The notes below the pieces were generated by a model, which was given only the letters and a program-made list of their open reading frames with translations, made no database searches and was not told where the DNA came from. 64,000 bases of DNA from Membranipora membranacea (lineage: Eukaryota > Bryozoa > Gymnolaemata > Cheilostomatida > Membraniporidae). The stretch spans positions 10,230,001 through 10,294,000 of the forward strand of contig OU612073.1 in assembly GCA_914767715.1 (NCBI GenBank), in the 5' to 3' direction. This document shows, piece by piece, positions 1,651 through 64,000 of the stretch (positions are counted from its first letter, which is position 1; every line of letters begins with the position of its first letter). Position numbers and translations under genes: made by a program.

Positions 1651-3786
1651 TTGATTATATGCTCCTCACTCTTATGCTGTACCATTAGCTGGCTCTGTTT
1701 GATGTCTCTAGCCATCTGTTGTCTGCGCTTAACCTCCTTCTCATCTTGTTTGGATTTACTTACATGTCCTCTGTGTTTCTCTTGGGATAATCTCCTAAAC
1801 AGAGGACGATATGCACTATGTATTAGATATGGTAGTAATCATAAGTATGCCTAATTGTGATCGGAAAGTTCCTGGGACATCATGTGTCAGTTTTCAAGAT
1901 GAGCATGGAAAAAGAGCCCTCATGTCTTACTAGAACAACAAAACTGTCAACTTCACTTTCTCAATTGTTTTTATTGGCAACATACTGTCAAAAATTCACT
2001 AAGATAACCTATGACCCTTTGACCAGTTTTTAATGATGAGGTTCTCTGTCTCATTGATAAAACTTCTTGGTATATCAAAGTCCAAAGTTACAATGAGCTG
2101 ACTGGATATTGACACAATCTATGAGATATTTGTGGTACCAGTATAAAAATCTCTCAGAGGATCAGTGCAAGGTTATGGGAGGTCTCAAGGTTGCAGATAT
2201 GTGACCGATTTTCTGCATCTTACAAAAACAAAACTGATAATCTGAAATAAATGAGTTTGGTCAAGGTTATTTGTAATTATTCTCATGAGATCTATTAAGC
2301 AGTGTCTGTGCCTGGCCTATGGGGTTTATAGCAACAACAAAAGTGACATAAGTCTACGGAAGAAGAAAGCTTACAATCAGTTTGTTTAATATCTCTATTT
2401 TGAGAGAATGGATGACATTCTTTTGCGAGCTAAAAATGTTTCCTAATAAGCCCATCCACCGTCTTGCCTAAGCACTTTTGGCCTCCAAATTTGCAGTTTA
2501 TAGACCAACGTTTACTATTTCTTGACATTTAGGGGGAGGGATTATTACCAATGTGAGAACAAAACAACACAAGTATCTATTTTTTTCCCATACCTAAGTC
2601 AAAGACAAAAATTTTCCTCCTTACAAATATAAGTTTCTGACAACAAATACAATCCATTAGGGCTATATTTGTTTATGAATAGGCCTAGTAGAAGAAAGAT
2701 TAACGGCAAAAGTAGCTAACATTCTCAACAACCATAACCTGGCATTGTAATTAAAGACTTAGTAATAGATAACCTAGGCCTATACTTTTTCTGTAACGCT
2801 CTACATAAGGAGGACCAAATTTTCTGCAGTGTTGGCCAAATCTCATGGCATGAAATTGCATAAAATAATATAGAGTAGACTGTCACATTTATGTCGAGAG
2901 TTTAATTGTGCTCAGCTTGAACCTCTACTACTCACAGACTACAAACTTTAATCATAAGTTAAGTTATCTGGTGGTGACCTTTTGTATGACTCATGACAAA
3001 ACTTACTTTACCCGCGGTCCAGGTATCGTAATAGCTGCCTCTGGAGCATCAAAGAAATCGCTGGAGTTCAGTCTGTCTAGGGAATAATTTGAGTCATCAT
3101 CGGTGCTATAGGTCTGTGGCTCAAACTTAGCAGCATGACTGAGGTACCTGTGTATATATATTCAGAGAGGAGTTAACTGTGACATTTTCATGTGTAAAAT
3201 CAATTCCTAAATGAAATCTCGTTTACATGTAATTAAAATTAAACTCTCGGCTGGAATTCAATATAACAGACTACAACTTAAACAGAACGCACAGGGCTGA
3301 GCTTGCACAAAACTCGCTCCAGACATTGTAGTTACCGCTCATTGACCATACTACTATAATAATGGGTTGCTCCTTGCATATATATATATATATATATATA
3401 TATACTACCAGGATTCCAGGACCAAAGAGTACCCCTTGAGGCTTGCTAGGACTGGGTGTAGCCTCTCAGAAGAGGTGCCTTTGTTGAGATGAGGCTACTA
3501 TGCTGGGAGAGTTTATTAAGCATGGTTGAATAAATGATACCCTGACTTCTTTCTATTAGGATCTGGAGCATCATAGGATCAAATCATGGAGAGCCTAACT
3601 GCAAAATGACGATTGTTAGTAAATAAAATTATTAATTATCACCAATGAACTAAACCTCTTTAGTTCATTGTTATCACATCAGAGAAGAGAGAGATACACA
3701 GCCACAACAAACAAACCTACCTTTCCTCCTCATCTGCGTCATCAGGGTTTGGTAAGGAGAACTTCACACTCACATGCTCCCCTGAC
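1651..3786 (-). CDS. Unrecognised multi-exon gene, acidic region followed by charged helical segment (partial)
   Basis: Three exons on the minus strand join in phase: 3721-3786, 3007-3147 and 1651-1794. Each has an AG acceptor, and GTAGGT, GTAAGT and GTAAGT follow them. The first exon encodes SGEHVSVKFSLPNPDDADEE. The second is rich in Asp, Ser and Tyr (STDDDSNYSLDRLNSSDFF). The third is strongly charged (KSKQDEKEVKRRQQMARDIK), which suggests a coiled coil or long helix. I do not recognise the family. The 5' end must lie upstream of 3786 within about 470 bp of the divergent gene at 4257, but I could not fix a start. The 3' end is ambiguous: the sequence after residue K is both a good GTAAGTG donor and, read through, AAG TAA, so this exon may be internal or may end the protein. 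Being coding is supported by three phase-compatible exons; function is unknown. Confidence 0.6.
3379..3402. repeat. (TA)n microsatellite
   Basis: An uninterrupted run of alternating T and A lies in an intergenic or intronic stretch between the first two exons of the minus-strand gene. Confidence 0.9.
3643..3670. mobile_element. Tiny palindromic element, AATGAACT subfamily, with 7-bp target duplication
   Basis: This is a 28-bp hairpin with perfect 12-bp arms (CAATGAACTAAA and its complement) and a 4-nt loop. It is flanked by identical 7-bp direct repeats TTATCAC at 3636-3642 and 3671-3677. It lies in the intron between 3148 and 3720 of the minus-strand gene. The flanking duplication shows that it inserted into pre-existing sequence. 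Confidence 0.8.
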
Positions 3787-4256
3787 CTGTAACTTGACAT
3801 TATTTATATATTTCTACTTGTTTATACTGCCAGGTTGGGCATAACAGGAGTCGAACAGATAAGAATCCATCACTCCCCTGTGTAACCTTTTTGGATATAG
3901 GAATTTTGCAGGATACACAGACTGATATATTTCTTGGGGTAATTAAACAGAGAGGAAACAGCTGAAATGTTGTTTGGAGCCAGTCATATAGCAAAGAATT
4001 ACCAGCTGATAAAGTCCTAAAACTATGTCAGTAAGATTCGATGAAATTACGAACTTCACGAATACTGTTATGTCACCAGGCAACTTGCAATCAATATGGC
4101 TGCCAAATGATTATTTTCCTAATCTTGTGATTAAAGTAAAAGCTACACTTATTTTTTGATAAGATTTGCTACTTTTTGCAACCTTCGCCAGGTTGTTATT
4201 GATAACTAGCAGTCAACTTTCTACCTAGCCTGTTTTGATAGGCAAAATCATACAGC

Positions 4257-9060: not shown

Positions 9061-9684
9061 TTAAATATACTCAGTGAATACGTACCAATAAGGTTTATTC
9101 TCATTTTTTGGTCGTTTTAGTTGAACTTTGAGTCGCTTCATACCGATCTGATAACCATTCATAGTTTGGATGGCTGTCTGTGCTGATATTGGGTTATCGA
9201 AGCTTACAAAACCTGAAAATTCATCAGAAATGGAATTAAGCTTATTGAAGAGTATAATACACCCATCCAAAACATCAGAGGTGAATCACTCTACCAATGT
9301 TGAGTCTTATCATTGGATAATCTAGTGAAGCTTGGTGACATTGGTGACTTCACAGAAATAATTACAATAGCTTCCAAGCAGAGCACAACCATAATAGAGT
9401 GTTTTTGCAACGTATTCTCTCACCAAAGAGGAGAGAACATGCAGAATAGATGGACAGAAGAGGTTACTTACCAAAACATTTGCTGAGATTTGTCTGCTTG
9501 TCTATGAAGACTTTGGAGCTGACAACATTTCCGAATGGCAGGAAAGCCTGTAAGAGGTCCATGTCTGTGAACTCTTGTGGCAGATGGTAAATAAACAGGT
9601 TTGCTCCATCAGGTCCTTCTGTCTGTTTACCTGCGGGGGTATCTGGGGCCAGAGCTGTTGGTGCATAGGCATGTGGAAACGAGG
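9061..9684 (-). CDS. CELF: CELF RRM3 exons and C-terminus
   Basis: Exons 9472-9684 and 9061-9212 encode RRM3. The join falls inside RNP1 (SKCFG, then FVSFDNP), a phase-1 intron. The domain runs from [13 protein letters not shown] to [19 protein letters not shown]. Family members normally stop at a Lys-Pro-Tyr end. Here the frame continues after KPY for eight residues (WYVFTEYI) to a TAA at 9061-9063. A GTACGT donor immediately after TAT-TG (exon end 9086) could instead split the stop codon. Confidence 0.93.
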
Positions 9685-15600: not shown

Positions 15601-18600
15601 CACATATTGAACTTTACAAGTGGTTCGAAGCTCACTTGTACCACAAGCAGCATTACAAATTGATGCCATTTCAAGTATTTGTTCTTCAGTATATTGAAAG
15701 CAGACAGGACAAGTCCTTTCCAAGCGAAGCCCTTTGGGGAAGATTAAATTGGTACCTACTACAGATTAATTTTGTCAATTTATTTCTCTTTGTAGCCCAT
15801 AGGATATTATTATGGGAATCTCGACTTTTGCAATGTATTGCTCAGTTTTCAACATCTCATTATTACGGTTGTCGTTGTTCTTGGGAAGGTCACAACTTAG
15901 CATCTTGACACTTGCATGAGTGTGTCAAAATGAACTAATTTTTCCAATCTCCCACCTTTCGGTTGCAGACCATACTACCAATGAACTCCCTTCATTGATA
16001 CTACACAGTGCAGGGCTTGACATTGGATGTGAACATAACAGTTAGCCATGGACATTTTGTGGTAGCAAAGTTGGGGTTGGGGATCAGTTTAGTGATATAT
16101 AATGGATCATACTTACAGCTAGATATTGAGGCGATACGCCGGCGGGTAGAGCACCAGTGGGGAACGGATTGGCTGTAATGATATTGTTATTTGTAGGCAA
16201 GATCTTAGTCCCTTTATCTTTTTGAGTATCTGCAAACTTGACGACTAGCGGAGATGAACAGCCCTGCAATCAGATAAATGGATGGATAAAATGTCTTCAC
16301 AAACAGACTCGCCCTCGTATGCGTCTCTGCACAATTTGGCAAATTTTAATTCATGGACGAAAGCCTCGCTGGCATTGTCTGGGTTGAAAAATGTTGCGCT
16401 CCATCCCACCAATTCCTCTTGATCATTCGGCATGAAATTCCCTTCCTACTGTTGATATCATATAAAGAATCAGTCCTAGTCAAAGTTACACCAGATCTTG
16501 ACTTTACAGAGAGGCAAGGCTTATAATAAGTGTAACCTTTGTGTGTGTACCAAAGTCGAGACAGGTATTCACTTGATTGATTACAGACCGATTGACAGAG
16601 TAATTACATGTTAATCACAATGAGACACCATTTTTGCCTGGCCGTAGCTGAAAATTGGCACCCATAGTGAAGTACGACTAGCGTTTCTGCTGCGATACCT
16701 GTTGATTCACCATAATGCAGTTACACTCTACGATACATTACCATGTACTAGATGGGGCACACAAACATATCAATCATAGCACATGCTTCCATATTATAAT
16801 TTAAAGTGGGATGGAAGCAGGATTTTAAGTTCAATGCATTCAATGTGAGAGCGGACAGTACATCGGTGTATGACCCTAGTATCTTCATACCATAATCTTA
16901 TAAACACTTGTGTGTTTATGGTTCTTAGAAAGCAATGTCAAACCAGTCTGTTCTTACCATAAACATATAGATACTTTTTTATATTCATATATTATGGGTC
17001 TAAGAAAGCAAAGTCATGTTGCTGACATCAGGATATTATTATATTAGATTATTACCTCCATGGTCTGTGCGTGGTGCATGTGCTGAATGGCGTTTAGTGC
17101 ACTCTGTCTCACAGCATATGTCACAAATGCACAGCCTGTCAACAAAAGAGCAAAATAAGGCATTGAAAAATCTACCAACATTGGCCATAACTATTTTGTA
17201 TCTGTGACACTAGTTACAAGCACTGCTGGAACACCTAGGCGTTTGATTCATCATCAAAAGAGAATGAAATATATTTTGCTGGTACCATGTACAAACTACA
17301 TATGTAATGAAATTCCGGAGAATGTAATACGAGATCAAAACCCTCCAACCAATAACGATACCAACCAGTGATAGATACTGTATATATAAATATATACTGG
17401 TAATCCGAGAGATAGATGATTAGCGGCGAAGGATCCCAGAAGTGATATCCTGTTGCTCTTTTAGACTGAGATGTAATGACGTGAGAGTGATGATGAGAAG
17501 GGAGACTAGACAATCAACCTAACAGACAAGAGCTTGACATGCAAATGATACACAATATGACCAAATGTTCGTCTTCAACAAGCGAGCAAGATGTTCATTC
17601 AAGTGCAGCAATCAGAGAGCCAAAACAGGAGCCCTCAGGCTATGTGGCGCACTTGAATTAGGGGGCGTACAGGTAGTTGGACTACTGATTACCAGTTACA
17701 AGTGGTTGTTAAGAACCCCAGCTATAATTCGCTGATGAAGAGATCGTTCAAGACTAGAGAATGAAGAGGATTATAATTATCATGTACAGTCCAATGCATT
17801 TGTGAGTTATGGACAGAGGAATTAAGTTACCAAAGCAACCCAGTCTGCCTATCTCGTCTCCCTATCTTTCTCCATACAGTTACAGTACTTAGGGGCAGCG
17901 AAAATTATATCAGATTACAGCCCATATAGACCAGACATTATGAACAATTGACCATTAAATCAGAATAAAGCATAAAAAAGAGATTTGATTAAGATGTGTG
18001 GTCCCTGATCTGGTGATTAGAGTGGTAGGATTTGGGATATTAGCAGAACATTAGAGAGAGATTGAAAGAAAGAATATGACTGGATAAGCTGATTGCTTCA
18101 ACAGATTAAGATTCATTACTGGCTGATAGTTGGTATGGCAGACCCACACAAACAGCTAAGAATGATCCCAGACTGAGCTTTTTAAATCCAAAAGATTTAA
18201 ATGTTAAAATGAATTTCAAAATGACCAGGTAGGTACAGAAGAAACATCGTCGGCCAGACCAAACATGAAAGGCTCTTTGGGAGGAGAAACATCCACCACC
18301 TGCAGCCGATCAGAGCGCTGCTGTGCGGTATTGTATGTCGGTGACACGGAAACTCAATCGAAATCTAATTGCAAATTGCTGACAATGGTTCAATCAATGT
18401 CTATTGAGTTTTACATGTCAAAGACATCTTGTGGTGCAAATTCGTGACGCTTGGCGTTACCTTCTCAGCACTTTATCTGACTGCTTGATCAGTCGTCTGA
18501 ATATTCAACATGACAATCATAAGGGGTAATAACCTCAAGCCCTACCGGCAATTAAATTGATAACAAGCACTTTCAAATATAAATCCTGTTCCATATTTAA

Positions 18601-21600
18601 AAGTTTTCTACTCTGGAAAAAGCCTCAAATTGAAATTCTACCGAGGTAAACTACTCCTGAACAGAAGCATTGTACATTCAGTGCGCTTGAGGCGAGTGGC
18701 GGAAATTTACATAAAACTTAATGATTGAGGTTCATACAGCCATCACTCAAAACGGATTCCTATCAATTAATAAATTGTCGGCTGGTGAGCAAGCTAACAA
18801 ACAGGAGTGATTAAAATGGTAAATTGATGAGGGCAAGATGATAGTGAGGAAGGCTTCTCTGCCAACAACCTGGTAAACTTTTGATTAGTAGCGCCAGTTA
18901 AGAGGGCTGACAGTCAGTAATATGCCTTCCCTCAGGCCAACATGTGGCTGAGAATTGTACCTAGGAATGAATCATTGACGTATTACAAGGTGATTAACCA
19001 ACAACTTAGGGGGATTAGGAAAAAGAGGTTGGACTAAAAACAACACCTGGCCATGTTCTAAAGTAATCAGAACCACATGGTTTTATAACCAACCACACAT
19101 TAAGTTAGAAAGTACCGATGGGGAGTGGAGAAATTTAGATAGGATAATTGATGTTAGCATGAAAAACTAAGATTTATTGATAATCTATAGCTTTTGTAGT
19201 TCACCAATGTCGTCACTGTGGTGAAGAAAGGAGAAATCTGGTTAGATTAGATCTAAGATAAAAAAAAAGTTTCTCTCTAGTAGTGATCCGTGGTGCTGTG
19301 GTAATAGCTGACCATTTTATAGGGAACAGATGAGAAGCACCATAACAGGCACTAGTGTGGGAAGTGGCAGTCATAAATGGTTCAAACAGAAAAGTGAGTA
19401 TCAACGCTAGATGTATACACCCTTCCACCAACAAACTCCCTCATTGCTTCCACTGATAACCCCCATCACTTGCTCCAAGAGAAGATAACTACAACCATCA
19501 AAATTATCCTGTTCGCAACAGACAGCAGCAACAGCCTAGATAGCAGAAAGTTAACAGAATAGACATGGATTTAAATGATCCTGACATTGGAATTTTCAGA
19601 TATATATGATATGACCCATAGAACGGAATTTCCAAAACTAGCACCCAATTTTATACCATGACGCAATCTTTCCTATAGATACCAAACAAATTGCTGGACA
19701 CCAGCATTGTGAGGTGGAAATTCCAGAAAAAAAAGATTGCATTATGGGATATTGATGCCCTCACAGTGACTATACATACCTCGACTGACTCCTGATGTGT
19801 CTCGTAATATCATACAATCTTCTATGGAACCAAACGGAGCAAACAACTGCCTGATGTCATTTTCAGCGAGTTTTTTACTGATCATCCCAATAAATAACTT
19901 TCTGTCTTCGACTGCAACGAAAGTGTAAATAATTACAAATCACCTGTAAAACAATTAAAGTAAAAAATAATTATTAGATGCATATTAATTTACATTATAG
20001 CTATGGCTTGCACTCTTTTATGGGCCTGATGTTGGTTCAATCGAAAAGCTAGATGGATTCACAGAATCTTCGTCAATCCTGCATTGATAGTTGTGGGTCT
20101 CATGTATGTGGGTGCTAGTGTTCAGGATTACACCACCACCCACACTGAGTTTAGTCATGAGAAGTAACTGGCTATGATAGGTTTGGTGATTGGTATTATT
20201 TATGTTGTATCATACTGGAGCCTGGGCAGATTATAAGGTGACAGTCATCAAGTTACAGAACCAATAAAAATTAATTAATTCTGGTAAATAATTTCACTTT
20301 AGTGGTTTGTGTGCATGTAACTGTTTCCCCAAAAAGCCACAATGTAAAAAAAAGCCGATTGATGAACCGTCTTGCGTATGCTCATGACATCCAATCCGGA
20401 AGGCTCCACCTGACAAGGGGCAGGATTAAAGAAGGTGAAACTAGATAAATAGGTGAGATAACGGTGTGAATTAATTGAAATTAAGAAATTGATAGGCATC
20501 ATGATGCAATCAAATTTAATGATAGGCGGATTGGATTGGAGCTCCGGAGACTGGCAGGTGTTAATAACCTATATTGAATTAGAGTATTTTCTTAAAGATC
20601 CAATTATCAAGGTATTAGGGTCTGGTGTGGGCCTTACAATTAAAGATCCAATTATCAAAGTATAAGGGCCTGGTGCTGGCCTAAAATGTTTTTTTTTATG
20701 TCTGGGAGTAGTACGGTTTTTCACCGTAAAACACTATCTACTTGTCAGGTTGTACTCACCATTTTTCTTTTCGTTATCCGCAGGTTTCATTTGTATCGGA
20801 TGGTGCATCTGTAATAAGACAAATAATCGTTAATAAAAAAGATACAGAAGGGGATAACTCTTTATTTGAGATAATAATCAACATCCATGCTTCATTTTGA
20901 CTCCAGACCGATCTACTAGTACAGCCGAACTTATGACATGTAGAATATTGAGAAGACTTTGATGTTACGGTTGGTTGATTGTGAAAGTGACAACCTGGAC
21001 TGTCTGAGGTTAAAAATATTTGGCCATTAAACTGATTTCAACACCTTCTGATTCAAGGATAGAAAAAAACAATGATTGATTTTTTAATCATTGACCTGCA
21101 CTGAATAGAATTGATCTTAGTGTCAACTCGCTGCACTATAAGCTCAGTATGACCGACGGGCTAAATTTAAACCTAAAGTTCGGACAGACCGACACAATGT
21201 ATCCAGTTCCAAGGTAGCAAAGACCACCAAGATCACACTTAGATAGGACCATAAACATATAAATAAGTATTTATATATTTAAATACATATAAATAAGTAT
21301 TTATATGTTTATGGATAGGACATATAAAATAAGGTACCAGTATCATTCAACTTTATCATAGGTGTGCCAAGTTTTTTATTCTAAGTTTTCCTTTTGACTG
21401 GAGCTGACAAATCTCTATTGCCTATGTCTAAGCTGGTCTCTTGTTTTTAGACCTGTCATGAAAACCTCTTCTCTTCAGGTATTCACAGAGAGTGATGAGA
21501 TAGTGATGAATAAGACTTTTTGGGGTTTTTCATCATATATATCACTTCATCATCATAAATGGTCACTTATTGTCAACATCGATACTTTGCCACTTTGATG

Positions 21601-24600: not shown

Positions 24601-27600
24601 AGTGCAGGTAGAGAGTCTTCAGGAGTGCTGACAAAAAGGATTCCCGACAGCGTTCACATACAAACTGAAAAGGGCACAAACCGAATGTAACATGACTGCT
24701 ATTATCAGAGGGGAGAACCATTATTGGTAAGGCCGCACATGAATGGGAACAAATAAGACCATAGGAACAACTTTTTCCAACTGAACCATATCTAGGAACT
24801 GAACACAACAAACTGTAAAAGAAAGATCTTCATCCTAAACTTAAACCGCTCGTTCTGGTGTTTTGCATGGATCCTGTTTACTCAGAGCAGTTCATTGTAC
24901 CGGAGGCTAATTGGCTTCTAGAGTAAAGATTTTCCACGAAATTCGGAACTGTTTCCCAGCACAAATATCTGTTTGTTGGTTGATATAAATCATTACCATC
25001 AAGGCACGGTTTATTTTAGCTCCTTAATCAAGGAAAACCATACATAGAATATAGCATGGTTTGACTGAATTTTCAGTTGGCTCGTTGATCAGTTGATGTA
25101 GTTCCAGAACTTCCCGATTTCAAATAAACTCAGATCAATGAACTCCCTTCATTTTTTGCCTAGTTTGCAAACAAGAGTACACTTTGAAAAAGCGAAACAG
25201 ACTGAATAGCTAGAGCTAGATGCTTACCATAGTCAGAAAAAGATCGAGTAAGAAATGGGTACACATCCATCAACAAGCAACGCTTCCTCTAAAGAGATCA
25301 GCGGCAGCAGTGAACCTTAGCTGCCAGACATGACATGCTTTACAACGACTACAGGTAGCTTGTTTACAAACAATACTGATAGGTTTTCCTTCGGGAAGAA
25401 AGGCAATAACTCGAGATCTGAACGATAAGGAATCAGTTTCTAAGCATACCGGCGAGCTTATTACGCTGACGGAGAGCGATTTAAGATTTAATGATACATT
25501 AGTCTCGATTCTTCTGATTTAGTCATGGGGAGTCGTCGGCTCAAGCTGATTATGCACTCAGAAATCGCATGTTACACCACATCAACCGTTATTCAGTGCA
25601 GGGCTTTACAGAATCAACGTCTGATTATACTCTCCATATCACAAAAGATCTCCCTAAACATTACATGCTCTCTTGTGCTCAGCTGTATATACGGTTGAAT
25701 CCTTTTTCATCCAGTTTGACCTAGCACGCACAACAGTCTATACTCGCAGACATGATGGGATTTCTCATAAGCAATTAGAGTCAGTGACATGAAAGGAAAG
25801 GCCACCCTAGCCTGCAAGTTATACAAGCAGCCTTACTACAAACTTTGTGAGCGCTGCAGCTATAAAAATGGTTTTAACGTTTTTTTAATTGAATCTGACA
25901 AAAAGGCAAATAAATGCCATCACCCTAAGTTGACTAATGACAATTGACAGGTCTTTACAAATAGGTATGCAAATATGACTAATAATATCTTTGCCCTGAA
26001 TAATAATATCAAATTTTTAGTGTGAAGCGTTATCAGTAGTTTCAGCTCCCCTCCACCCTAGTAGGTAGTAAGCTAAGTGGATGAGCACGGTGATTTAGCT
26101 GCTATTTGGAATTAAACAGGTGGAATTTTCATGAGTTTCAACAGCATATTGCTCACCATCACAAGCAAAACCTAATCGTCAGTCTACTGACAAAAAAAAA
26201 CACACACACACCATGGTCTGGTCCAGCTTCCAGTCACCTTCACACTAATTAAGATTATTGTCTTCACCTAGCCATTTTTTGAAACAACAACACAACAACA
26301 GAGAATTGCTTGATACGAGAAAACAACACCTCAACTTAACAAAACCATACCAACTAGAGACTCAACTCGAAAAATATATAAAGTCTGCAGAAACACATTG
26401 TGCATGTCCATATGAAGCAATGCCAAATTTACTCACCCGCTCAAGTTTATAGTGTTTACTGAAATCGAAGCCCGAAATTGAAGACTGTCGTAGAATAATG
26501 AATTATTACTACAGATTTATCAGATGGAAACACGTGAATAATATGTGAAGGAGTTGTAGCTACAGCACCTTGTAGATAGGAACAGAGATAGCAGGAGATA
26601 AGAGGTAGCAATCCACTCAACCAGGAGACTCAGTTAAAAATAATTTAGCATGCTCTTCAAAGAGTTAAAAACCTCAACAAATGGGTGATTTTACTCACCA
26701 TCAATCATTCCGATGAACCTCTCCTCTGCGAGTTCAATGTAGTGGTGACTTTTTTAATTACTTTATCACCGTTTTAGTGTACCTGGTTGATTATAGAGAT
26801 AGCCGAGGTTGTAAATCATTGTTGTAAGCCATCAATATTCAGGGCATGACAGATGGATTTAATTTGCTTCTGTTTAGCAAACGTGGTGAATTGAAGCGAG
26901 ATGAATTCAAGCTTGAGATTTCAGGTGTCGACTGTAGGTAAGGAAGGCAAGAGGAGGAAACCCCCAACAGACAGTCTAGTGTAGTCTGGTAAGTGCAGCA
27001 GGGTCCCAAACTCCCTGGGTGCAGGCAGGGAGGCAGACAGTGAGACTAATAAGAACAACAGAAACTCGAGGACTGGGCCTTAGGCGAGGACTGGGTAGAT
27101 GGATTTCAGGATGAGAAAAACCACTACCTATATAAAGCAACCAGATATAGCTTATAATACATCAAGATTTTGGTATAATTTATTTTTGTGTGAGATTTAT
27201 AATTCACAATTCATTTAGCTTTTTTGTAGCTATGGTGCAGTGAACAAAATGAATAAGAGTACATGTACACTTGCGTACCAGCGGTCCCCCATCTACCATG
27301 TCACACCTTTGGAATGGAGAAAACGCACCAAATATAATTGATCTTTGTCCTTGCCAAGAGCGCAGCCAGCAACACCAATGCGAAACCGACAGGGACCACC
27401 ATATTCAGAATGTGATATGGCATACATATTGATATATAGATTATTATATAGCGCAGGGATTCCTGGGATGCAATTAAAACGAAGTTAACCTAAACCAGTT
27501 TCAAAGCCTAAGATTTGCAGATCCAATTCCTCACACTAAGGAGTTGTGTCCGCATTCCATAACCACCGGAACTCTTACAAATGAATAAAATAACCAGTGA

Positions 27601-35289: not shown

Positions 35290-37818
35290 CAGCAGCGTCG
35301 ACAAACTCGCGCGGCGGGGAGTCTGGACAAATTCAGATTAACCCCAGTCAAGTACTACTAAATCTGTATTGCCTTTTATTATACACATCGAGTATTCTAA
35401 AGCTATAATTTTATTAGCATACGGAGAAAGTTTCAATGTTTGAAATGACACAAATCGCTTTAGACAAGGCTGTGGTATATAGACTTCGTTCTGATACTAA
35501 GTTCAATGCGCCCTATGCAATGTATGACTTGCTTGAACGCAAATAAAATGTGATTAAGAATTATTATATTATTATTTAGTGATATTATATAAGTCACTTA
35601 GTGTAGACAAAACATCACACCTAGAGCTAACCTAGCAAATAAAAGGCCAGACTGGGACAGCAAGGCATTATGGTACACATAGAAGGCATTTTAGAACGTT
35701 TAATTTTCTTTGAACAATGTCGGCGAATATTCCCATAATCACCTTTATGGGAAATATCTTTGATTGAGGGGTCGGGTCAGGAAATCTGTTTAAATTGGCA
35801 GGGACAGAGGATGTTATGTAAAAGGAGCGTGGAAAATTGAATTTGATAAAAGCGTGTTACGCTGGTCCTTGTTCTACTAGCCCCAGCAGTTTTCTATTTT
35901 TCTGGCAATCTAGAGCATTAACCCAAATACACACACGATATGCCAACAACTAACACAAAATTGTGAGAAATAATGAGAAAATAACCAGCATAAATCCTGC
36001 AACGCATTCATAACTCAGCAACCATTATTTTACCATTTTCTAGCCTACTGATCGTCAAACATTAGAGGGAGGATAGATGGTCTAGACACATTTTGACAAA
36101 ATACCAAAAATCTTAGGCTTTAAAGTTATGGCAGGAATATATGTGGATCAGCCTAGCCATAACCTAACATACACTGAAACTCAGCAAAATTTAATGGCAG
36201 CACATTACTGGTTTTATGAATTCTCAACCAATGGGTTAACCCTACCCAACAAAGTACTGGGTAATAAATAAGTCATCACATTTATAATTGCAGTCTGTCC
36301 GCAGTATGAATGTATCAGTATTTAGCAGGAAAGCAAGCTGCCTCGTCATAATTTGTTTCGACTTATTATGAGATTGGAGGGAGTTGATATTTCAGTTTAC
36401 ACAAACATCAACTAACAGCATGAAGGATAATAATTGAATAGCTTGCACATGTCTACCCCGCCAGGCCAATTCTCAGTGTTGATTTGTTATTGTAACCACA
36501 ATATGAATGAGCCGGCTTTACTATTAATGGTGGAATTAAGATTGACACACTTACTATCATTTATCGTAGAGGAAGGCAGGCATCTCCGAGTAAAACTATT
36601 TTATCTAATATTATTACTCTTTGATGGAACGAAAGCATGCCTAATGCCTACGACTTAAAACAAAGTACCAAGAAAAGCCCGTATGATTCAAATAAAATAT
36701 GCGCCTCCATGAACCCTGTGATGGCAACTAGTAGGTTGTCTTACCACATGAAAGATACCAAGCCAGCATTCACTGAGCGAGTCTCAAGTTTGCCACGTAC
36801 CAGTCTGACAAACGGACGGAGTGGTGTTATCCCAGCGAAAGTTCACAGACAAATGCAGAGTGGTCGTCAGCTTGTTAAGATTTTGTAAGAGGCTTGATAT
36901 GCCAACAATGATGGAAATTGGCTCTTTCAACGATCGCTGCACCGTAGTGTCTCTCTTTAGTCTAAAATAGAATAATTTCTCATCTAAAATTGTCCTCTAT
37001 CACACAATAAGAGCCCATTTATATTCAACACTGGACAAAACAATACTAAACTGCCCTGCAATTGGCCATGGGAAGGCTGAAAGCGCACAAAAGAAATAGA
37101 GTGATTAGTCCCCAACACACTTTGGTGATCTAACCAGTAGTTCCACCCTTTTAATATAATAACAATTTCCACTTTTCATTTCATAATAATTATCTTCAGC
37201 ATTTGATGTGGCATGCCTTGGTTGATACCCGTTTCAAGACTTTCAATTACTTTATCAATAAACTTTTGTTTTCGCAGGCATCATCACCTCTAAGTTTATT
37301 CAATTAATTTTAATCACTCCAAAGCAGCCCTGCTAATATCATCACCTCAGGGAAAGGGAACCATGAACTTCGATTACCTTTGTGAGATAATAATAGAAAG
37401 ATGAAATGCTGGAATATCAATCAATAATGGAGTACTTTTCAGTCTGATTTTCTGCTAGCAGTAGGTATCATTTGATATTACTTGAAAAGATCAGACTTTG
37501 CCGAAGTTATAACTTAACATAACCTAGTTTCCATAAAAAAACATCTTACTATGGTTGAACCAGGGAGTATAATTTATTACAATCATCTTATGATCCAGTC
37601 GAATTTTTGTCCAAAACTTACAAAGTTTTATCAAAGCATAGCCAGCTCAGACGACTCAGCAATTTTGTGTCATTATTGTATTACACCCATTTTACTGTTA
37701 GATGGGCTATTCCTATACCACTTAGTTATCAATAGATTATTATGGGAACGCAGGCACCTGCGACAACTTGCCTGCCGAAGTCCTAAATCAGACAGTCCAC
37801 ACAGATGTATCATATGAT

Positions 37819-37831
37819 CAAGGAGTCCTTG
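37819..37831. mobile_element. Smallest palindromic element (13 bp), AAGGAGTT subfamily
   Basis: CAAGGAGTCCTTG lies between ATATGAT (37812-37818) and GTATGAT (37832-37838), identical at 6 of 7 positions. It appears to be a copy with no loop and shortened arms. Confidence 0.55.
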
Positions 37832-40800
37832 GTATGATAGCATGTGCCATAATCACTACTGCTAGCTTTCAATTTTTATAATCAAGTAGGGTATCTTGAG
37901 CTTAGGGTACAAGCATATAATTTTCAAAATTGCAAAAGACCATCCTGGACCAGCTCTGAAGCCTCAGAATTGATATAATGTGCCATAATTCACCTCCCAA
38001 CAATGCAGAATAATTATAGGGCTGAGCGGAGCTGTTTGATAACACAATGATGTGCTTTCAGGGAACCTGCAGGTTGTTCGGCATAATGTTGACAGAAATT
38101 AAAAGGGAAAGTCCATTAAAATTTCATGGTCAAGTGAGAGATTTAAAAGCTTACAGATAAAACAACATTTAAAAAAACTCTCCCAGTTTTTTTGCTTTCA
38201 ATAAACATGACTAGCATAATATTGATAGAAGCGCTGCCTCATGATGCGTTATTGCAGTCAGATATTGTATAAGTCACATACTGTGCCAGCGAATGCAAAT
38301 AAATTTTCATACAAGTCTGAGACTGAATACAAATGAAAAGAAATACAAACGCCTTGAGCCGAGGCATTCACTGATTGTAAGATATAAAACAAAATAATAA
38401 TATATGTCCATTAGCATAGGTAAATAAAATATAAAGTTTAACAATTGTAAAAACTATAGAATATTTAGGGCAATCAAACTCAATTAACGACTTACGCAAA
38501 TTATTCACAAACCCTACCTGTCGGCGTTTCGTTTGGTGGAAGAAGGTTCGAAGCAATGCATCATGATCACGCCTGCTAAATCAGCAAAAACTGCTCAATC
38601 TTCGCTGTGGCGTTAAACCGACAGTTTGTTAAATTTAAAGCTTGTACCAAGAGAAGCCAACATGGACAAACAAACACACAATTTCAAAGGACATCTCTCG
38701 CTCGCTCTTGTTTTGACTTGACTGTCATGCAGATTGCATCAACAATGCAAAGTTTTTTGGAATAAAGTTAGACAGTAAACATTGATCAAATTTAAGCTTG
38801 GGAGTACCATTTGTCCCTACCATATGAGCAGAGTTAATCTGATGAAATACAACGGACAGATAGAAACATGGAAAGGAAGAGAAATAAGACAGATCATTCC
38901 ATAACGAAAGCCTAAGTAGCTGGGCCTAGTTAGTGCTTAGGCTAGACAGAACTGAACATTGTTGACAGGCCTGAATAGATATAAAGCAACTTGTCAACTA
39001 TTCAATGAAAGTGTTACATAACATGGCTGGCGTATAAAAAGGCAAAACCGCTAAATCCTCTTAGAATTATCAAAAATCTTGTTACTGAAGTGATCGATGC
39101 TGTAAGAATACCACAAAGACAGCCTAGAGCTTGGCTTATCAGGGCACTGACACTGCTCATTTCTTTTCTGAAACATTTCACTAATTTTTTTAAAGAAACC
39201 CAGCCAGATTGCAGGCCAACAACACCAAAGCTAATGGGATATGCAAAGAACGTCATAAACAACGCTTAGATTCAAAAGAAGGCTGAATCAAATAAATCAA
39301 TCTCCTGTTTGGCAATTGCCAACCTGTTTCAAGATGTCACTTGATGGGGTTGTATGGGTTGTATATGAAATAGGAAATGGCCAAAGATGTGATCGCCTGT
39401 TGACATCAGATGCTCACTTCCAAGCCAAGAAATCATTACCATGCTCACATCTAACTCTCAGAACAGAACCGACTGCAATCCAATTCAATTTTAGTCTTGA
39501 TAAAAAAACAATTCGAAATGTCATCAACTGTTAAAAATGATAGCTAATAGAAACTTCAGTGGTTTTGAGGTAGACCTTACTTTTAAACTTCACAGTGAAA
39601 GAGACAATCTCACAAAAGAATCTTAAGTAAATACAAACACAAAGATGAGTGCCATCTACTTGAGATCTTTGAGACACTATTCTACTACTAATAACGGTTA
39701 GTAACAGTTTTAGCACTGTGAGCAAAAGTCTGTGCTGTGTAGAAAGTCAGGAAACTCATTTGTCAACTTCATCTGGGCTTGAAAATCAAAAATGGTAGAA
39801 CAAACACTGACTAACAGACTACACGAGCACAGAGAGCAGTCTTAAGTTAACTCAAACTAAGAGGGCTGTGACACCTTATGTTTATAATAGAATGAATGGG
39901 TAGTAGGGCTTACCTTTTTTCTTCCTTTTTTTTAGTTTTCTTCTGCGAATTTTAATACAAAATTTTATACAAAAACAAAAAACGACAGGACACCTGAGTC
40001 GAGACAAAGACCTGCTACGGACGAGAAAGATAAAAAAGTGATGGCGAAGCCAATTGGACAAAGCAGATTGTGATGACATCATGTCGAGTTACAGCAAAAA
40101 ATCAATTGAGCGTTGGTGGTTGCATCCTAGTCAACAACTTTCGACTCACCACAATAAATCTAGATGTCAGTCTTTGTTAGCCTTGACCATCCAATTTCTT
40201 CCCAATCCTTCAAGTATCCAACGTCTTTCAACTCAACCGCCAACAGTCATACTGATGCAGCATCAGACAGCTTCAATTTGTTTATGATTCGTCACCTCCT
40301 TGACTGATCTTACCACCTTCGTTAACAAGAATTTATGCTGGTATCTCAATACATTCCAAGATACACCTGTGCTCTTAGCCTGGTAGATCAATTTTCCACA
40401 ACCTGGATGATGATGAAAGCCGGATTGCAGAATATTAATATAACATGTTGCATAAACAAACATATCTCCAGTATAAAAAGCCGCATATCTGACCACAAAC
40501 CTTGAACTTTATTTTGTTCAAAACCTCAAACGTCAAGAACAGACGGCTGATATTTTAACACTCAAACCATGTCCCTCCTGCAGTATTCTTCAAGAGTGAC
40601 GTTATACACCAGCCCTATCATCTGTCCTCATGCAAGTTCCTAATGGATAAAGGTCTCTAAAAATACCATCCCATAATTTTGACTTTTGTGGGGGTAGCCT
40701 AGAAGCGTCAGGTATATTTGGTATAGGTTTATCTGTCCCATCGAAAACGCATGATGTTAGTGTAAATTGTTAATGGAAGCAGAGAAGACATGAAAAGAAG

Positions 40801-41775
40801 AAGCTCAGCAAGATATTAGCCCAATAGTTCTAAATAGTAACCTGCAGTCAGAGAACTAGTATACAGACTTCACCGTCACCTAACTAAGAACGAAAAGGCG
40901 AATAAATGACAACTATCCGTAAAATAACCTGTACTGTATGAGCTCAAGCATGTTACAAATGGTAGTCGAATGTATGGGAGTGAAGGTTTCTGCAGCATCA
41001 GATTACTTTCGTGCCATTATGAAAGCAAGCCAACGCTTAACCAAAAGTAAGCACCGAGTGAGCCAGCTCATCTGAGCGGTACACCAGGACAAAAATCAAG
41101 ACAATACAAAGTAACTAACAGTAACATTGTATTACATGGTTACTTCAACATGTCCTTGGAGGTTGGGATAGGAAAAAAACATCAATCATTCAAGGGTTGA
41201 CTGGACAATGAGGTAAAGTATACATTGCATGACACAATAGCACAGCAATTAGATATGTAGCAAGGCTAAAATTGAACAGTTACCAAAAAATACAAGAAGA
41301 GATGAAAAGGGACCACTTATTCTAGGAACAGTTACACATGTATTTTGCACAAAAAGACTATTGAGTGATTGCTCATTGTCAGACAAAACAACACATACCG
41401 TGACCAGACAGTGATTAACCTTCTAGGACACAGAATTAGTGAACAGAACTTCAACTGGTGACAACTTTGTATATCTACAGGGTGAACGAAAGCAGTTGAG
41501 AGTGCTAGCTACACTCCACATGTGAGCAAGAATAGGAGAAAGCACACACGTGGTTGTTGATTGTCTATCTGAGGTCAGGGGGTCAAATAAAAAGGTAAAC
41601 AACAAATTCCACACATTTGATTGGTCAGCTATTTGTCAAGCAACCAATCCAGTGCAAGCTTTGTTTAGATTTCTCAATGATTTTCTAATAACCACAAGCC
41701 CATATAATAATGCAATAGACCACCCAAACAGGACCCAATGCATCAATTCGATACACCCAATACCTTGGTACTGAG

Positions 41776-41800
41776 CAATGAACTAAACCTTAGTTCATTG
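41776..41800. mobile_element. Tiny palindromic element, AATGAACT subfamily, with 7-bp target duplication
   Basis: A 25-bp hairpin with perfect 11-bp arms CAATGAACTAA and a 3-nt loop. It is flanked by identical TACTGAG at 41769-41775 and 41801-41807. It lies in the POLRMT-CELF intergenic region. Confidence 0.85.
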
Positions 41801-42515
41801 TACTGAGTATTGCACCAATTCAAAACATTTATACCTAGGTACTGAGACTTGCAGTTAATATTCATTTTCAATGTATAGTATGTGATTTGCCTAAAAATTC
41901 AACTGTCATCAAAATTTAAGTTAATGTCATTTTAACAGTCATCTTTCATTATTGCACCTTGTATTCCATCAAACAAAACCAGTATTTATAAAGACTAAAG
42001 CATAGCTAACAGCACCATTTACACTTACAGTAATGGGAGAGCTATCATGGCTGTGAAAAGTTGCACTTTCAAAAAATATTATTATTGTGGGTTATGCCTC
42101 ATAAACACCCAGCAGTTGTTGGTAAAAGCTTTGTAAGCAGCATCCCATAAATATACACACCAACCTTCTCGATGCTCAGATTTCAGTCACATTGGTTCAC
42201 AGCAATAATTACTTTTGCACAAAACACACCAGATAATAATTTTGTGAATATACAATTCAGACATAAAAAAATTTCAGCACTACAAACATGATTTCAGTAT
42301 CAACAGCTATAATGAAGAAATTATTTACAAGCGTAATTTACAAACTATTTTACATTCTATCATACACACTTAATTGCATCACATCACATGCTACCATAAT
42401 TTTGGCTAACTGAGCAGTATCTGAACACCACATAGGGCATTTGTTGGACACTGACACAACTGTTATAGAGAATATATGTGCAATCGTTGGTCACCTATCC
42501 AGCTTATTCTACTGT

Positions 42516-51240: not shown

Positions 51241-51271
<31 letters not shown>

Positions 51272-54200: not shown

Positions 54201-57200
54201 TAATTTCCCGACAATAAATACTTGGTAAAAGAACTTACCTTTCCTAGGCGGTATTTCAGATGATCATTGGATGAAATACTGGCATACAGCAACCAAGTAT
54301 ATGTAACAAGATTAGGTATTATTTCAGCCTCATACATAGAGTTCAACAAGGACCAACCATCGTCCCACATCCCCTATAAATGTTGTTTTTGCATGTAGTT
54401 CTAAGTGCATGTAATGTATTGCATGTATTGCATGTAATGTAAATCCATGTAATTCTAAAGTAAACCATTTATTATACAGTGCCAAGTACCTGCCATTCAG
54501 TGAATACAAGCCCTTCGAGATTAGGCAGACAAATCATGGGATATGAAACTTGTTTCGGGAAAAGTTGCTGTTGTAAAATTGTGGGATAGTGCTTAGAGAA
54601 CAATGCAGAGTTTTAACAGCTTGACAAAATGGAATGGTTTTGGTTTTACAACCACAAAAGATCAGAGGAGGGAGCTGCCACACATATCTTTGCAACGTTA
54701 TGGTCGAATAAGGAAGCATGTTATTGCCATCTAAACGCTTTTATCACCAACCGATAAACCGGTAGTTTTTTGTTGGTAAGGGATCTCATTTTTGGTTGTT
54801 ACCATTAAAGTGCATGTAAAGGAAACAGGTTTTTGGTATCATTCTAGAGCTCTCAGTCTAGTTTAGAACATTATGCTATGTCCAAAAGCAGCCTGTGGCC
54901 CAGTTAAGAATTATTTTCACTCGAAGTTGGGATGAGAAGGTACTAAAAAGGTACTATTTTTCTCCTTTGGAGTTATGATCACTTGTAGAAAATAGTACCT
55001 TTTTAGTACCTTAGATTATAATGGGAATATACAGTATCTCGTAAATAAGACTTTTTGTTATGACACAGTGGTTTTGATATTCCCTGCATACAATATTAAA
55101 CCACACAGAATTTATCTATTGAATGAATGAGTGAATACAATGCAAAGTTAATCTGTCCCATGTTATGTGGCTTCGCTGGTAAAATGGGATAGTGTATAAA
55201 ATTTCATAATTGAATGACAAAGCAAACGATCGAAATCAAGCACGGCAAAAATTACAACTCTAGCTCATCCGACAGCGAGAGTGATAATTATAGGGAGATT
55301 AACAGATCCAGTGAGAGCGAGATTGAATATCATTCAGGAGGCAATTGTAGCAAATAGACGTGGAGTCCATGTGATTATCATAGGGAAAATGTCCCTGAGG
55401 TAGTCACACCAATGAACTTAGTTCATTGGTCACACCACTAAGTTTAAATCTGTATGATTTCGGCCACTTGAAATAACCCACAGTGCTTTGACAGATACAA
55501 CATTTTCTGTTAACCATGGTTACTGCTCGAGATAGAAATTGGCAATATAAAGGCAGATCAATACATGGCTAAAGTATTTCAAGGTTTTGTTTATATTTAT
55601 TTGATGAATAAATGAGATTGTGGCTACATGGATTGTATTGAAGATTATAAATACTAAGATATGACATTCCAATCAAACTCTGTCTTCAGCCGTTATGCTT
55701 TATGATTAGTGGCTTTCAATAGAATTTCAATGGAAGATACAAAATTTACACATGTAGACTGGATGTTTTTCTAATTTGCACAAAAATGTAGAATAATTTG
55801 TTTTTAAATCTCGACATTTCAGGCATTAGGATGATGTTAAAATCCAAAGCATGCGATGATTAATACTGAGTGATTTGAAGTTTTGAGAATCTTTACAACA
55901 ATTTTTGCAAATATTCTGATGTTTGGACTCACAAGATTTTTTCGGGTAAACTTTGTTGTTTACATCAAAAACTGGAATTTACAAGTCACAAAGTAAATTG
56001 AAGTAAATAAAATTGTCATCTAGTTATTTCGGACTTCAGGGCGATGAAAAATGTAAATGAATTTGACTGCCCTCTAAAGAGAGGAGTATTGATAATCGTG
56101 TAAGCAGTGGAATATCTTGAGGAACTTTCTATATTATTTTACATCAGATCTTGTCCACCTGTGCATCACAGATACTCAGCACATCTAAACATGGATCGAC
56201 TATCAATATTACTGACTGAGTGCAGCATGCCATATGAGAACCTATGTCAAAGCACACATCAGTCACATAGGAAATTAATTTGTCGAGTTTTTGAGTTATT
56301 TCATCAGTATGGATCTTATTTGGGGGGCTAGTGTAGGATATTATCGCAAGATTTGGTACTAACCATAAAGCATTGTATGGACCATTTTTAGGTAAATCTG
56401 AAATAAGCAAGGCTTTGTCAGCAGGAAGAATCCATTGCTCCAGTGTAATCTCATTTAAACAGAGCAATCAAGCGCAGCGGTATGAAATGAAAATCACTCG
56501 CTTGAAAAGCTGTGGACAGGGAATGGGTCATAGTCATTGATTGTAATGTACAGTCAGTATTTATAATCTTTGGTACAGTGGTTCTTCTAATCTCTTCTTC
56601 AACATGGGCTCATAACAGAAATGAAGGTTGTTTTGATTAGCGGTCTCAACTCATTAAATTTGAACTTTTATGTCATCGACAGACTTGTGAGTGACTTTGT
56701 CATGTATTTGCAAAAGTTGTTATCTAACCACAATAGTCACTAATATTACTGTATTTCCCCCATAATAGGCTCATTACAAATCACCTGGACAAGTTGGGCT
56801 GTGCATGAGTAGGCAACTCAATAGTGTTAACTTATAACCCCCAAACCTACCATACCAAGTAACCCTGAAGACTTATTTTTCATGCAAATGCATGTGTGAT
56901 AGCTGTCTTAATCTCAATTCAAGCTCAAAAATGATACCAAGAACCCTGTTCCTTTACAAACACTTTAACACATAAATATCTATAAATACATAATATAAAT
57001 ACCTATAAAAAAGTATTTATAAGTTTATGGTTGTTACTTACCCTCATTGCGTATTCTTTCATCAGTAGGCAGTGAACAGCTGGTTCTAGGATTTGTCTCG
57101 AGTCAAAAGACGCATGTTGGTTTTTGGTCGACAAAAGAAACACATTCAGGCTCTCCCTGGCTTCATCCAACTGCAAATTGGCAACAATAAATGAAGTACC

Positions 57201-60200
57201 TATTCAAATAAGGCATCTCAAACAAAATCAATGAATAGAGTCAAACTGACCCACAATTATCCAAATGTCTTCAGTTGACTAACATTAATTTTCAAAATTT
57301 GAATGCCACACAGAGCTGATCTTTTACAGAGGTTTTACTATATAACTGGCTCAATAAATTCTAGAGAACGTCACTGACACAGCACACACTTACAAGTATA
57401 TAAAGGTAGTTTTCTAGATAAGGAGCTAAGAAAACTTTTTTAAAGCATTCACTCATACAATTCGCAGTAGCATTTCCTGATACAGTCATTAGTATAAGTT
57501 TATGAACCTACCTGCCCATTTACAAGTAATGCACGCAGATAAGCCATATAATCGTGCGAGAACTGTTTGTGTAGGAATTTACTATTCTCTCCGAACTCCT
57601 GGTCAAATGTAACCTTCTTCTTTAAAAATACCCCGAGAGTTGTGGTGGTTTGTTCTGAGAATAGCTGGATTGAGCTGGGTACCCTGCGTAATAAAAGAAA
57701 ATTATTTGCAAGTCTAGATGCTGCCTGAAAGACAAACTCGATCACTTCTTCTCATAGAATAGCATGGATGTTTAAATATTTACAATACAACATATCTTGC
57801 TATTGAACAAACAAAACATTTCATTAAAGAAAAAGATTCCGATAAGACTTACCTGTTTGGACAGTTTGTAACATTTTGAGCAGTTTTCTTCTCTAATGAA
57901 CTATCAACATTAGCTAAAACATAAAACAGTAGTTTGATGTATTGATTGTATGACAGTATCAAAAACACTATTATTCATCCCATTCATAAACAGTATATGG
58001 CCTCATCGAACATAAAGAGTTTTGACAACTGCAATCAGATGGTTCGGGATCAAATCAACCTTTAAAGGAAATAGAAGATGACGTTATGATGTATTTTATG
58101 ATAATGTCTATCACACACATACGGGTAAGAATGTAATTGATACCCTGCTATATCAATAAAACTAATACTTTTAATGCAACTTTGTCTGGATAATCATCAT
58201 TTTCCATCCAGAGTGACATATATATATATATATATATATCTATATTTATATATTTATGGTGTTCCCTAGGAGTTTGAGTTGTGTCTAGTACACTTTATAA
58301 TTTATTTTCATATATTTGTTTATTTTTGCTTTTACCTTATTCAAGGGGGATTCTTTTTAGGAATTTTATCACCCAATAATTTTTTGTTGTTGTAAACATC
58401 TCTGGAGAGAGGGTTTTAAAATTAATCAAACGAACAAACAAACTATTTGAAGTATAACACTGATAGAACTCATACTCTCATCAGGGATGGGCCATACTTA
58501 CCATCAGAGTGGGCTGCATGTCTGTGCTTGGATCTGAATAAACCGAGAGCTTCAGTCCAGTCTTGACCTTCAGTGTTTACTCTTTTGCTTTGAGCTACAA
58601 CGAGTTGAATGTTGAAAAAATATGACTTTCAATACAAACTATTGCTGATTGTTAACCGTTAAATTGATTAATATGTAACTAACAGGGTTTGTCAAATGCA
58701 AATATCTGTAAGTATGCAGTACTTTATATATATACATTTTTATTGCATCACTGAATGACCCTAGCTTGTCTTGACAAGCTTTGTCCCCCACCCCCACCCA
58801 CCGAACAAAGCTTATCCAAAAAGGCAGTAGTGACTATAGATTAGCAGGATGATCTTCATATATGTTTGAGTAACGACAATATTGTGATCTTAAACACACT
58901 TAACTTACATTTTTTATAAAGTGAGCGGTATTTCGTTTTCTGTGTATTTAGATTCACACTCAGTTTCTCTCTTGTGATACCACTCTTTTGTGGGGTGATT
59001 CTTTGCACTGCTTTCGTTTCTGATGTCAAGCCTGCTTTCCTCCCATCTAGATGGGTATCCGAGTATGCAGGTGATGAAGAAATGCTTGGATGTTTCTCTT
59101 CAGCGACATTACCACAGCTTCTTAGACTTTGAGACGGTGGGTTCTTGTGACCTGAAGATGTAAAATGAAAACATCCAAATGATAACTTTCTCCATTTCAT
59201 GTGAAAACATAATTGTTACGCTTGATTTTCAGAGGAAGGGGGAGCATTCAATTAGAACGAACGAGGCATTGTCAGCCGAATCATTGCTATCACATTGTAC
59301 AGTACCCTCGGTCTCAGCATCGGGCAAATGTGTTCTAATATCTACATGTATATATAAAGATAGTTCCATCTAACTCCTTGGTTCCATCGGATCAAAAACT
59401 TAGTAATAAACCTCTGGCAGGTATTTTTCATATCAGTAAGACAATATAAGAGGGTTCGGCAGATTGATTTGTTTTGGTGGTTGATGTGACATACTTGGTA
59501 CTGTACTACAGATTTTAATTAGGGTCTGAAGATTCAGTTGACCATGGGGACATCAATGAACTCCCTCAGTTCATTGGATGGGGACATTAGCTTAATAATT
59601 AGCAAAATATAGATAAATGTTCTGACCTCCAGATGCACAGCTCATGACTACTATGCTATAACATTAACTAACAAGACAGAGAAGTATAGTTATGGGCTAT
59701 GTCCATCTAGCTATGGTATTATTATGCATAGGCATCTTGAGTTACAAGCAAAGCATGTATGTATACTTTGCCAATGTCCACTCCATGATCATGCACATTA
59801 TTGGCAAAGAATACATGCTTGCAACTTCAACTAAGGAGTTAGTTAGAGACTTCAAGTCTGACTCCTTTCATTGATTGATGATTCAACCAACAACTTGTGA
59901 CTTGTTACTAGTCTGAGCCCCCAGACTTTTGCCCCTCGCCCGACGGCCCCATGGGCACCTGGGGGATCTGCCCAGCAGTACACTTTGCCCATGTCCACTA
60001 TCAACCACCCACACAACAAAATTGTTGTGTGGGTGGTTGATAGTGGACATGGGCAAAGTGTACTGCTGGGCAGATCCCCCAGGTGCCCATGGAATGGATG
60101 GCCCTGTCTGTAATTAATAATAATTCTAATTGAATAAAATCATACCTAGCCAGTATTTTCGCCCCTGTAGACTGCAGTTGTGACACTGTCTCAGCTTTTG

Positions 60201-60735: not shown

Positions 60736-60790
60736 ATCAGGGAGAATGGAAGGAAGAACAATTACAATACCCCCTTCCATTCTCCCTGAT
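60736..60790. repeat. Hairpin with perfect 18-bp arms
   Basis: ATCAGGGAGAATGGAAGG (60736-60753) and its exact complement (60773-60790) surround a 19-nt loop, about 0.5 kb upstream of the POLRMT ATG. Confidence 0.8.
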
Positions 60791-63617: not shown

Positions 63618-63646
63618 GTGAGTCCACAATCTATATGCGTATTTAA

Positions 63647-63925: not shown

Positions 63926-64000
63926 AGCATTGACAAGTGTTTATGGTATGAGAAATTCTGTCACAATGTGGGTTTAAACTTGGATAAGTATGAGAAATGA

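Follow-up and report, generated by a model that had tools for sequence, protein, structure and literature searches.

Tiny palindromes between 7-bp repeats in a bryozoan genome: probable excision scars of P-superfamily transposons

Introduction

How does a palindrome of a few dozen base pairs or fewer come to stand, again and again, flush between two copies of one 7-bp sequence? The question is raised by a 64,000-nucleotide stretch of the genome of the bryozoan Membranipora membranacea (GenBank assembly GCA_914767715.1, contig OU612073.1, positions 10,230,001 to 10,294,000; hereafter the window). A reading of these letters alone (the sequence-only reading) had listed ten such palindromes and offered two explanations, namely that they move in trans as micro-elements or that they are what remains of a larger terminal-inverted-repeat transposon making 7-bp duplications. 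We conclude that the tiny palindromes are best read as excision scars, of which the genome appears to hold thousands. It is highly probable that each palindrome of the window marks a repaired donor site, left by a cut-and-paste transposon of the P superfamily.

The staggered cut of P transposase at each element end is unusually long, at 17 nt (PMC7776569), and excision of the Drosophila P element is described as leaving 17-nt 3' tails of element sequence on both chromosomal ends (PMC2895639). In the mechanism we propose, insertion would duplicate 7 bp at palindromic targets resembling GTYWRAC. A P-type transposase excising the element would sever one strand at its boundary and the other some 16-20 nt into the inverted repeat, so that element sequence would remain as a 3' tail on either chromosomal end. 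These tails would then be joined through short microhomology (CT/AG, ACT) or small fillers, in a polymerase-theta-like reaction. Because the two tails copy the same inverted repeat, the product would be a short perfect or lopsided palindrome between intact target repeats.

Results

Palindromes in the window

All ten palindromes are present as the sequence-only reading described them. Their flush 7-bp direct repeats are perfect at eight (starts 3643, 15979, 19429, 32430, 33391, 41776, 55410 and 59370) and agree at 6 of 7 positions at two (31944 and 37819). That the set is no coincidence is borne out by a strict scan for CA...TG ends with exact flanks and inverted arms no shorter than 5 nt, which found seven window sites with 7-bp flanks (3643, 15979, 32430, 33391, 41776, 55410 and, newly, 60738) and none in each of 20 first-order Markov shuffles of the window. 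The same scan returned no site with 6-bp or 9-bp flanks, one with 8-bp flanks and, from the reversed window, none at 7 or 8 bp. Looser criteria yielded 13 rows, some overlapping and some outside the palindrome family, against 0, 4, 4, 3 and 2 in five shuffles, so that chance sites do arise under them.

Three members can be added to the earlier list (26999-27017, 59554-59576 and 60738-60788). At the second of these the flank repeat is offset by four bases and ATGGGGACAT is found at either side, out of flush by one base; the extra bases would be a filler. The ends of the copies had been taken to define one family. They fall into several end families (CAAGGAGTTARAGACT, CAATGAACTAAACC..., CAATGAACTCCCTCTTCC and CAGGGAG types). 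The window palindromes are 11-51 bp long, their arms are truncated relative to the 33-bp repeat of the intact elements described below, and they do not have the full repeats plus interior of a miniature inverted-repeat transposable element (MITE). Four open frames that overlap or adjoin the copies at 19429, 32430, 33391 and 41776 have no Pfam match, and scans of the window against Rfam (at gathering thresholds) and for tRNAs (with the bacterial code) were both empty.

Copies across the genome and their target repeats

Across the 339 Mb of the genome (18 contigs), strict two-armed patterns are abundant and their reversed controls nearly empty: 442 matches against 1 for CAAGGAGTTA(N0-30)TAACTCCTTG, 1776 against 1 for CAATGAACT(N0-25)AGTTCATTG, 752 against 1 for CAGGGAGT(N0-30)ACTCCCTG (the CAGGGAG type) and 725 against 0 for CATAGACYTA(N0-30)TARGTCTATG, 3,695 matches in all. 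The flanks of 84 rows from three of these four patterns (CAAGG, CAATGAACT and CATAGAC) were inspected; all scar samples come from contig 1, and the search patterns favour long arms. One scar of the CAGGGAG family, with perfect 7-bp flanks, sits beside a P locus.

The 7-bp repeats persist in the copies sampled beyond the window, a check that the sequence-only reading had called for. Among 44 CAAGG rows, which cover 45 of the 50 places listed among the 442 matches, the flanks are perfect in 28, differ at one position in 9 and at two or more in 7, compared with 0.11% perfect and 1.06% one-mismatch flanks in 1,892 cross-copy pairings. One of the seven misses (locus L076) becomes perfect once its right end is set after a second arm, and another (L075) is two tandem scars. 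The CAATGAACT scars behave likewise: of 20, 16 have perfect 7-bp repeats, 2 have one mismatch and 2 fail, and there are no perfect repeats at 6, 8 or 9 bp. The target 7-mers of the 28 perfect CAAGG copies give the palindromic consensus GTYWRAC, and target preference is similar in the CAATGAACT and CAAGGAGTT scars. Loci L067 and L069 duplicate a single site, and L112-L114 are three copies of one segment; all were kept in the flank and junction tallies. As a rough guess, the approximately six scars that lie in some 141 kb of (overlapping) loci outside the window, and that played no part in the choice of those loci, would scale to the order of ten thousand per genome.

Parent elements of one window family

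The sequence CAATGAACTCCCTCTTCC occurs 172 + 176 times in the genome, with none in the control. From 100 places listed we took 8 facing pairs (more than 60 and fewer than 2,000 bases apart) and 12 single places. Seven of the pairs enclose related interiors and form elements of 274-1590 bp, whose 7-bp duplications are perfect in five and have one mismatch in two; the eighth pair is two separate scars. The single places comprise 8 scars with a repeat (L193 being a weak case), 2 ends of element copies and 2 that gave no clear assignment. A 121-bp stretch of the ~886-bp element, used as a DNA query, gave 92 candidates, of which 40 were scored, all at 96-100% identity. Of eight loci inspected from this search, six carry both ends and perfect 7-bp duplications (868-892 bp; L181 is among them once more), L204 carries the duplication with a changed right end, and L202 is interrupted, departing from the ~886-bp element after ~212 bp with its second end not in reach. 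Intact parents are ~886 bp long, with a 33-bp inverted repeat (CAATGAACTCCCTCTTCCTCAGGAATAACAACA) and 7-bp duplications. By their sequence, the window copies at 15979, 19429 and 59554 belong to the family of these parents. The sequence-only reading had proposed to look for full-length elements with a transposase; for one window family larger parents were found, elsewhere in the genome, and these are transposase-less. They are taken, by their size, to be non-autonomous, and share with the fetched P loci no DNA apart from trivial short matches and a terminal 17-18 nt, which in L035/L036 belongs to a scar.

How much of the 33-bp repeat the scars retain bears on a rival origin, in which palindromic MITE remnants would have lost their interior by hairpin or replication-slippage deletion and no transposase cut would be involved. 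Inverted repeats are prone to such deletions, and internally deleted elements do exist here (L182 and L186). Deletion of that kind should give arms that vary freely in length, to 33 nt and more. The observed arms instead pile up at or below 16-20 nt: in 21 scar strings (12 of the 17 CAATGAACTC-type rows of the CAATGAACT list and 9 from CAATGAACTCCCTCTTCC loci) the retained arm reaches 20 of 33 nt in one, the weak L193, and is otherwise at most 19. The five CAATGAACTC-type rows left out of this comparison are one duplicate and four short-armed copies. The pile-up is seen in both the CAATGAACTCCC and the CATAGAC scars, although the repeats of their intact elements extend further; L157, at 24 nt, is the exception. 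On the strength of this limit we reject hairpin-deleted MITEs, an origin that we judge very unlikely. In the two internally deleted elements (313 bp in L182, 274 bp in L186) one end is reduced to the first 19 nt of the repeat while the opposite end is long, which would fit one-sided refilling by copying after excision, followed by joining.

One-ended copies, junctions and fillers

The end CAAGGAGTTARAGACT occurs 387 + 373 times in the genome (760 in total; control 0), and many of its places have a single good arm. Of 38 fetched places (20 + 18) absent from the two-armed list, 30 have the same 7-mer downstream with at most one mismatch, L109 being a weak case. The commonest lopsided form is a 21-mer in which 16 nt of one end and CCTTG of the other (16 + 5 nt) are joined over ACT; other lopsided copies show a CT join or have fillers. 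At these sites one arm is commonly no longer than 5 nt, and in L105 and L106, which reach 5 kb inward from two of them, there is no second end.

These forms bear directly on the first proposal of the sequence-only reading, that self-contained elements of 11-29 bp are moved in trans and make 7-bp duplications as they insert. The copies are numerous and flanked by target repeats, and some centre variants recur at unrelated sites, as such elements would. Yet the two ends are not conserved in every copy, as the one-ended sites and the window copy at 59370 show, and short-armed lopsided forms are common among the former; the forms that recur are those that microhomology predicts; the arms stop inside the longer 33-bp repeat of the intact elements; and, with moderate force, some fillers resemble their own junction. 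The lopsided copies and truncated arms lead us to reject mobile micro-elements, which we hold to be extremely improbable.

Among 74 CAAGG junctions, 32 show 2-3 nt of microhomology, 8 show 0-1 nt and 34 have inserts. All 44 two-armed rows were taken as resolved in this tally, with matching flanks or not, and selection for long arms biases the proportions. In L001, L076 and L119 (the last judged by eye) the filler contains an element end running on into the site's own target repeat. We searched for each scar's own junction word in its filler, using the 86 of 113 scars whose flanks differ at no more than one position (L075 left out, L076 re-read with its outer right end). A word of 3 + 3 nt was found in 4 of the 86 against 1.0 expected, and 8 of 2000 flank permutations gave a count as high. 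The fillers lend moderate support to end joining templated at the scar's own site.

P elements of the genome and CATAGAC scars

The genome contains P elements in number. PF21787, the RNase H part of P transposase, has at least 134 matches (150 of 211 candidates scored) and none in 14 control genomes. Locus L035 carries a 754-aa frame with P domains, of which one of four, PF21789, is just under the cut-off; its transposase resembles the solved P transposase structure PDB 6p5a (E=3.1e-38). Upstream of this frame, at L035:183-420, lie three similar stretches (at about 183, 302 and 374), two of them starting CAAGGAGTYGTCC, which are possibly old scars or subterminal repeats. Searches for terminal inverted repeats plus duplications identified full-length P elements, defined by both ends, a duplication and a transposase match inside: one of 4933 bp in two copies (ends CATAGACCTACTAATAATAAACC, 8-bp duplications TGCTGATC and GTTAGATC), one of 6419 bp (ends CATAGACTTAATATACTACC, 8-bp duplication GTTGATAA) and one of 5972 bp (ends CATAGAGTTATCCCCC, 8-bp duplication AGGAAAAC).

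If P elements with CATAGAC ends leave tails on excision, CATAGAC palindromes with 8-bp rather than 7-bp repeats are to be expected. This is what we see. Of 20 such scars, from about 50 places listed, 13 have perfect 8-bp repeats, 5 have one mismatch and 2 have two, and none is perfect at 6, 7 or 9 bp. In the families sampled, the length of the scar repeat follows the element family.

Repeated use of a target

At L204:1476-2423 four copies of the 7-mer GTGTAAG follow one another, with an 886-bp CAATGAACT element and two short CAAGGAG-type scars between them; this is repeated insertion and excision at one target. In L115 two families occupy one 7-mer. For CAAGGAGTT there are 442 strict matches and no intact copy in the part of the genome examined. 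In a wider reading, P-type elements would persist in this lineage mainly as scars, end joining prevailing over copy-back so that every hop is marked and, in some families, scars far outnumber intact copies; duplicated targets could be hit again and would seed further insertions. We put this wider reading at an even chance.

Features of the window

The candidate scars are collected in Table 1. Three other features of the window may be recorded. A 64-bp AT-rich palindrome at 21250-21313, CATAAACATATAAATAAG..., is flanked by GATAGGAC twice and is a possible 8-bp family; CATAGACTTA and TTAAGTCTATG stand within ~50 bases of each other at 50238-50285, a possible CATAGAC scar whose flanks do not match; and 63610-63938 holds tandem-like repeats of ~35 bp containing ATGACCATGTGACAAGGCTAG.

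Table 1. Candidate excision scars of the window. Coordinates with repeats include both target repeats.
Type	Length (bp)	Palindrome	With repeats	Strand	Target repeats	Remarks
CAATGAACTAAACC type	28	3643-3670	3636..3677	.	TTATCAC	
CAATGAACTCCCT type	19	15979-15997	15972..16004	.	ATACTAC	Intact elements with such ends exist in the genome
Decayed CAATGAACTCCCT type	18	19429-19446	19422..19453	.	CTTCCAC	Family by sequence likeness only
CAGGGAGTTTGGGAC family (CAGGG type), probable	19	26999-27017	26992..27024	.	AGTGCAG/GGTGCAG (6/7)	
CAAGGAGTT type	24	31944-31967	31937..31974	.	GTTGATA/GTTGACA (6/7)	
CAAGGAGTTAAAGACT type	27	32430-32456	32423..32463	.	CTTTGAC	2-nt CT microhomology form
CAAGGAGTTARAGACT type	29	33391-33419	33384..33426	.	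GTCCAAC	
CAAGGAGT type	13	37819-37831	37812..37838	.	ATATGAT/GTATGAT (6/7)	
CAATGAACTAAACC type	25	41776-41800	41769..41807	.	TACTGAG	
CAATGAACT type	19	55410-55428	55403..55435	.	GTCACAC	
One-armed	11	59370-59380	59363..59387	.	GTTCCAT	C + TAACTCCTTG, single good arm
CAATGAACTCCCT type	23	59554-59576	59547..59587	.	GGGACAT	Palindrome followed by GATG, then the repeat
CAGGGAGAATGGAAGG-ended family (CAGGGAG-ended)	51	60738-60788	60731..60795	.	ATTTGAT (twice)	16-nt arms + 19 nt

Discussion

The second proposal of the sequence-only reading, that the palindromes remain after excision of a larger terminal-inverted-repeat transposon with 7-bp duplications, is upheld and made more specific: cutting takes place some 16-20 nt into the repeat, and joining by microhomology or filler seals the gap, as for P elements. 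A target repeat is followed by up to about 20 nt of one element end, a microhomology join or filler, up to about 20 nt of the other end, and the repeat again. The repeats have the length proper to the parent (7 bp with CAAGG, CAATGAACT and the CAATGAACTCCC parents, 8 bp with CATAGAC); the stretch kept of each end is limited to nearer 18-20 nt than a strict 17; and the joins show microhomology or, with moderate support, templated filler. The parents of the 7-bp families have 7-bp duplications, within the 7 or 8 bp of the P superfamily, a palindromic target preference and ends starting with CA. A P transposase match lies inside the parents of the CATAGAC families, while the CAATGAACTCCC parents found are transposase-less. 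The scars are a known kind of excision product on an unusual scale. We infer that a P transposase was the mover of the 7-bp families also, that their tails were 3' strands and that a repair polymerase closed them.

A number of observations weigh against attributing the palindromes to P excision. The 7-bp families have yielded no P element of their own: no element was found that joins a P transposase to CAAGGAGTT, CAATGAACT or CAGGGAG ends, none of the genome's P proteins (an RNase H-like domain with a GTP-binding insertion) is tied to ends of the 7-bp families, and the searches for inverted repeats plus duplications gave no ends for transposase families F1, F2, F3 and F7 or for loci X1-X4. No intact CAAGGAGTTARAGACT element came to light either, as inspection by eye of 95 places listed on contig 1 revealed no facing pair within 20 kb except the palindromes. 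The autonomous element of the 7-bp families and the intact CAAGGAGTT element may be rare, decayed, in other parts of the genome or gone. Eight of the 38 one-ended sites have no matching flank, and by our estimate about 3 of 38 would match by chance when one mismatch is allowed over this distance. The filler result is weak at 3 + 4 nt (2 found against 0.35 expected, with 80 of 2000 permutations as high), and of the four hits at 3 + 3 nt one (L115) combines two insertions and another (L160) is a short insert and may have arisen by chance. Finally, the CATAGAC scar of L157 keeps 24 and 21 nt, above the 17-nt tail, the other 19 of 20 keeping at most 20 nt; the cut may lie nearer 18-20 nt in these families, or a filler may mimic the end. 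Several of the 20 match the F4 and F6 ends for 10-13 nt only, which implies further CATAGAC families.

That no autonomous partner of the 7-bp families was found in the loci examined also speaks for scars of some other superfamily, one that makes 7-bp duplications and likewise cuts deep inside its inverted repeat. We consider this unlikely. The hAT, Tc1/mariner and piggyBac transposases cut at the element end or within a few bases of it, and scars of this kind are also left by P elements here. For Galileo, a member of the P superfamily, the literature describes 7-bp duplications and palindromic GT...AC targets (PMC4168063).

If P excision is the right explanation, a puzzling class of repeats is accounted for by a known reaction and becomes a resource. 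Should most of the matches be scars, each would mark a break whose starting ends are known and which lies between its own target repeats, and thousands of germ-line break-repair outcomes could be read from a wild species. Scars would also record families whose elements were not found, and repeat annotation may miss them or label them tiny MITEs. A limited search of the open-access literature, covering titles and the openings of abstracts, found no description of a genome-wide set of natural P-type excision scars.

Comparison with known systems

The closest likeness is to the products of Drosophila P excision by alternative end joining, which Chan et al. (2010) describe as an 8-bp repeat, a tail of at most 17 nt, microhomology or a templated insert, a second tail of at most 17 nt and the repeat again (PMC2895639). 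The order of parts is the same as here. Those products are reported from laboratory crosses with one inserted element and 8-bp repeats, whereas ours lie in a reference genome at many loci, come from several families and have 7-bp or 8-bp repeats. Scars like those of the 7-bp families are left by the CATAGAC P elements of this genome as well; these elements differ in their 8-bp duplications, their other ends and the P transposase match inside. MITEs resemble the ~886-bp parents in having terminal inverted repeats and 7-bp duplications; the window palindromes, in contrast, are almost without interior and often have just one good arm. Galileo shares the mostly 7-bp duplications and a palindromic GT...AC consensus, given as GTANTAC or GTATTAC. 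It differs in that its copies are described as elements with long repeats, and the word 'footprint' is absent from that paper's text (PMC4168063).

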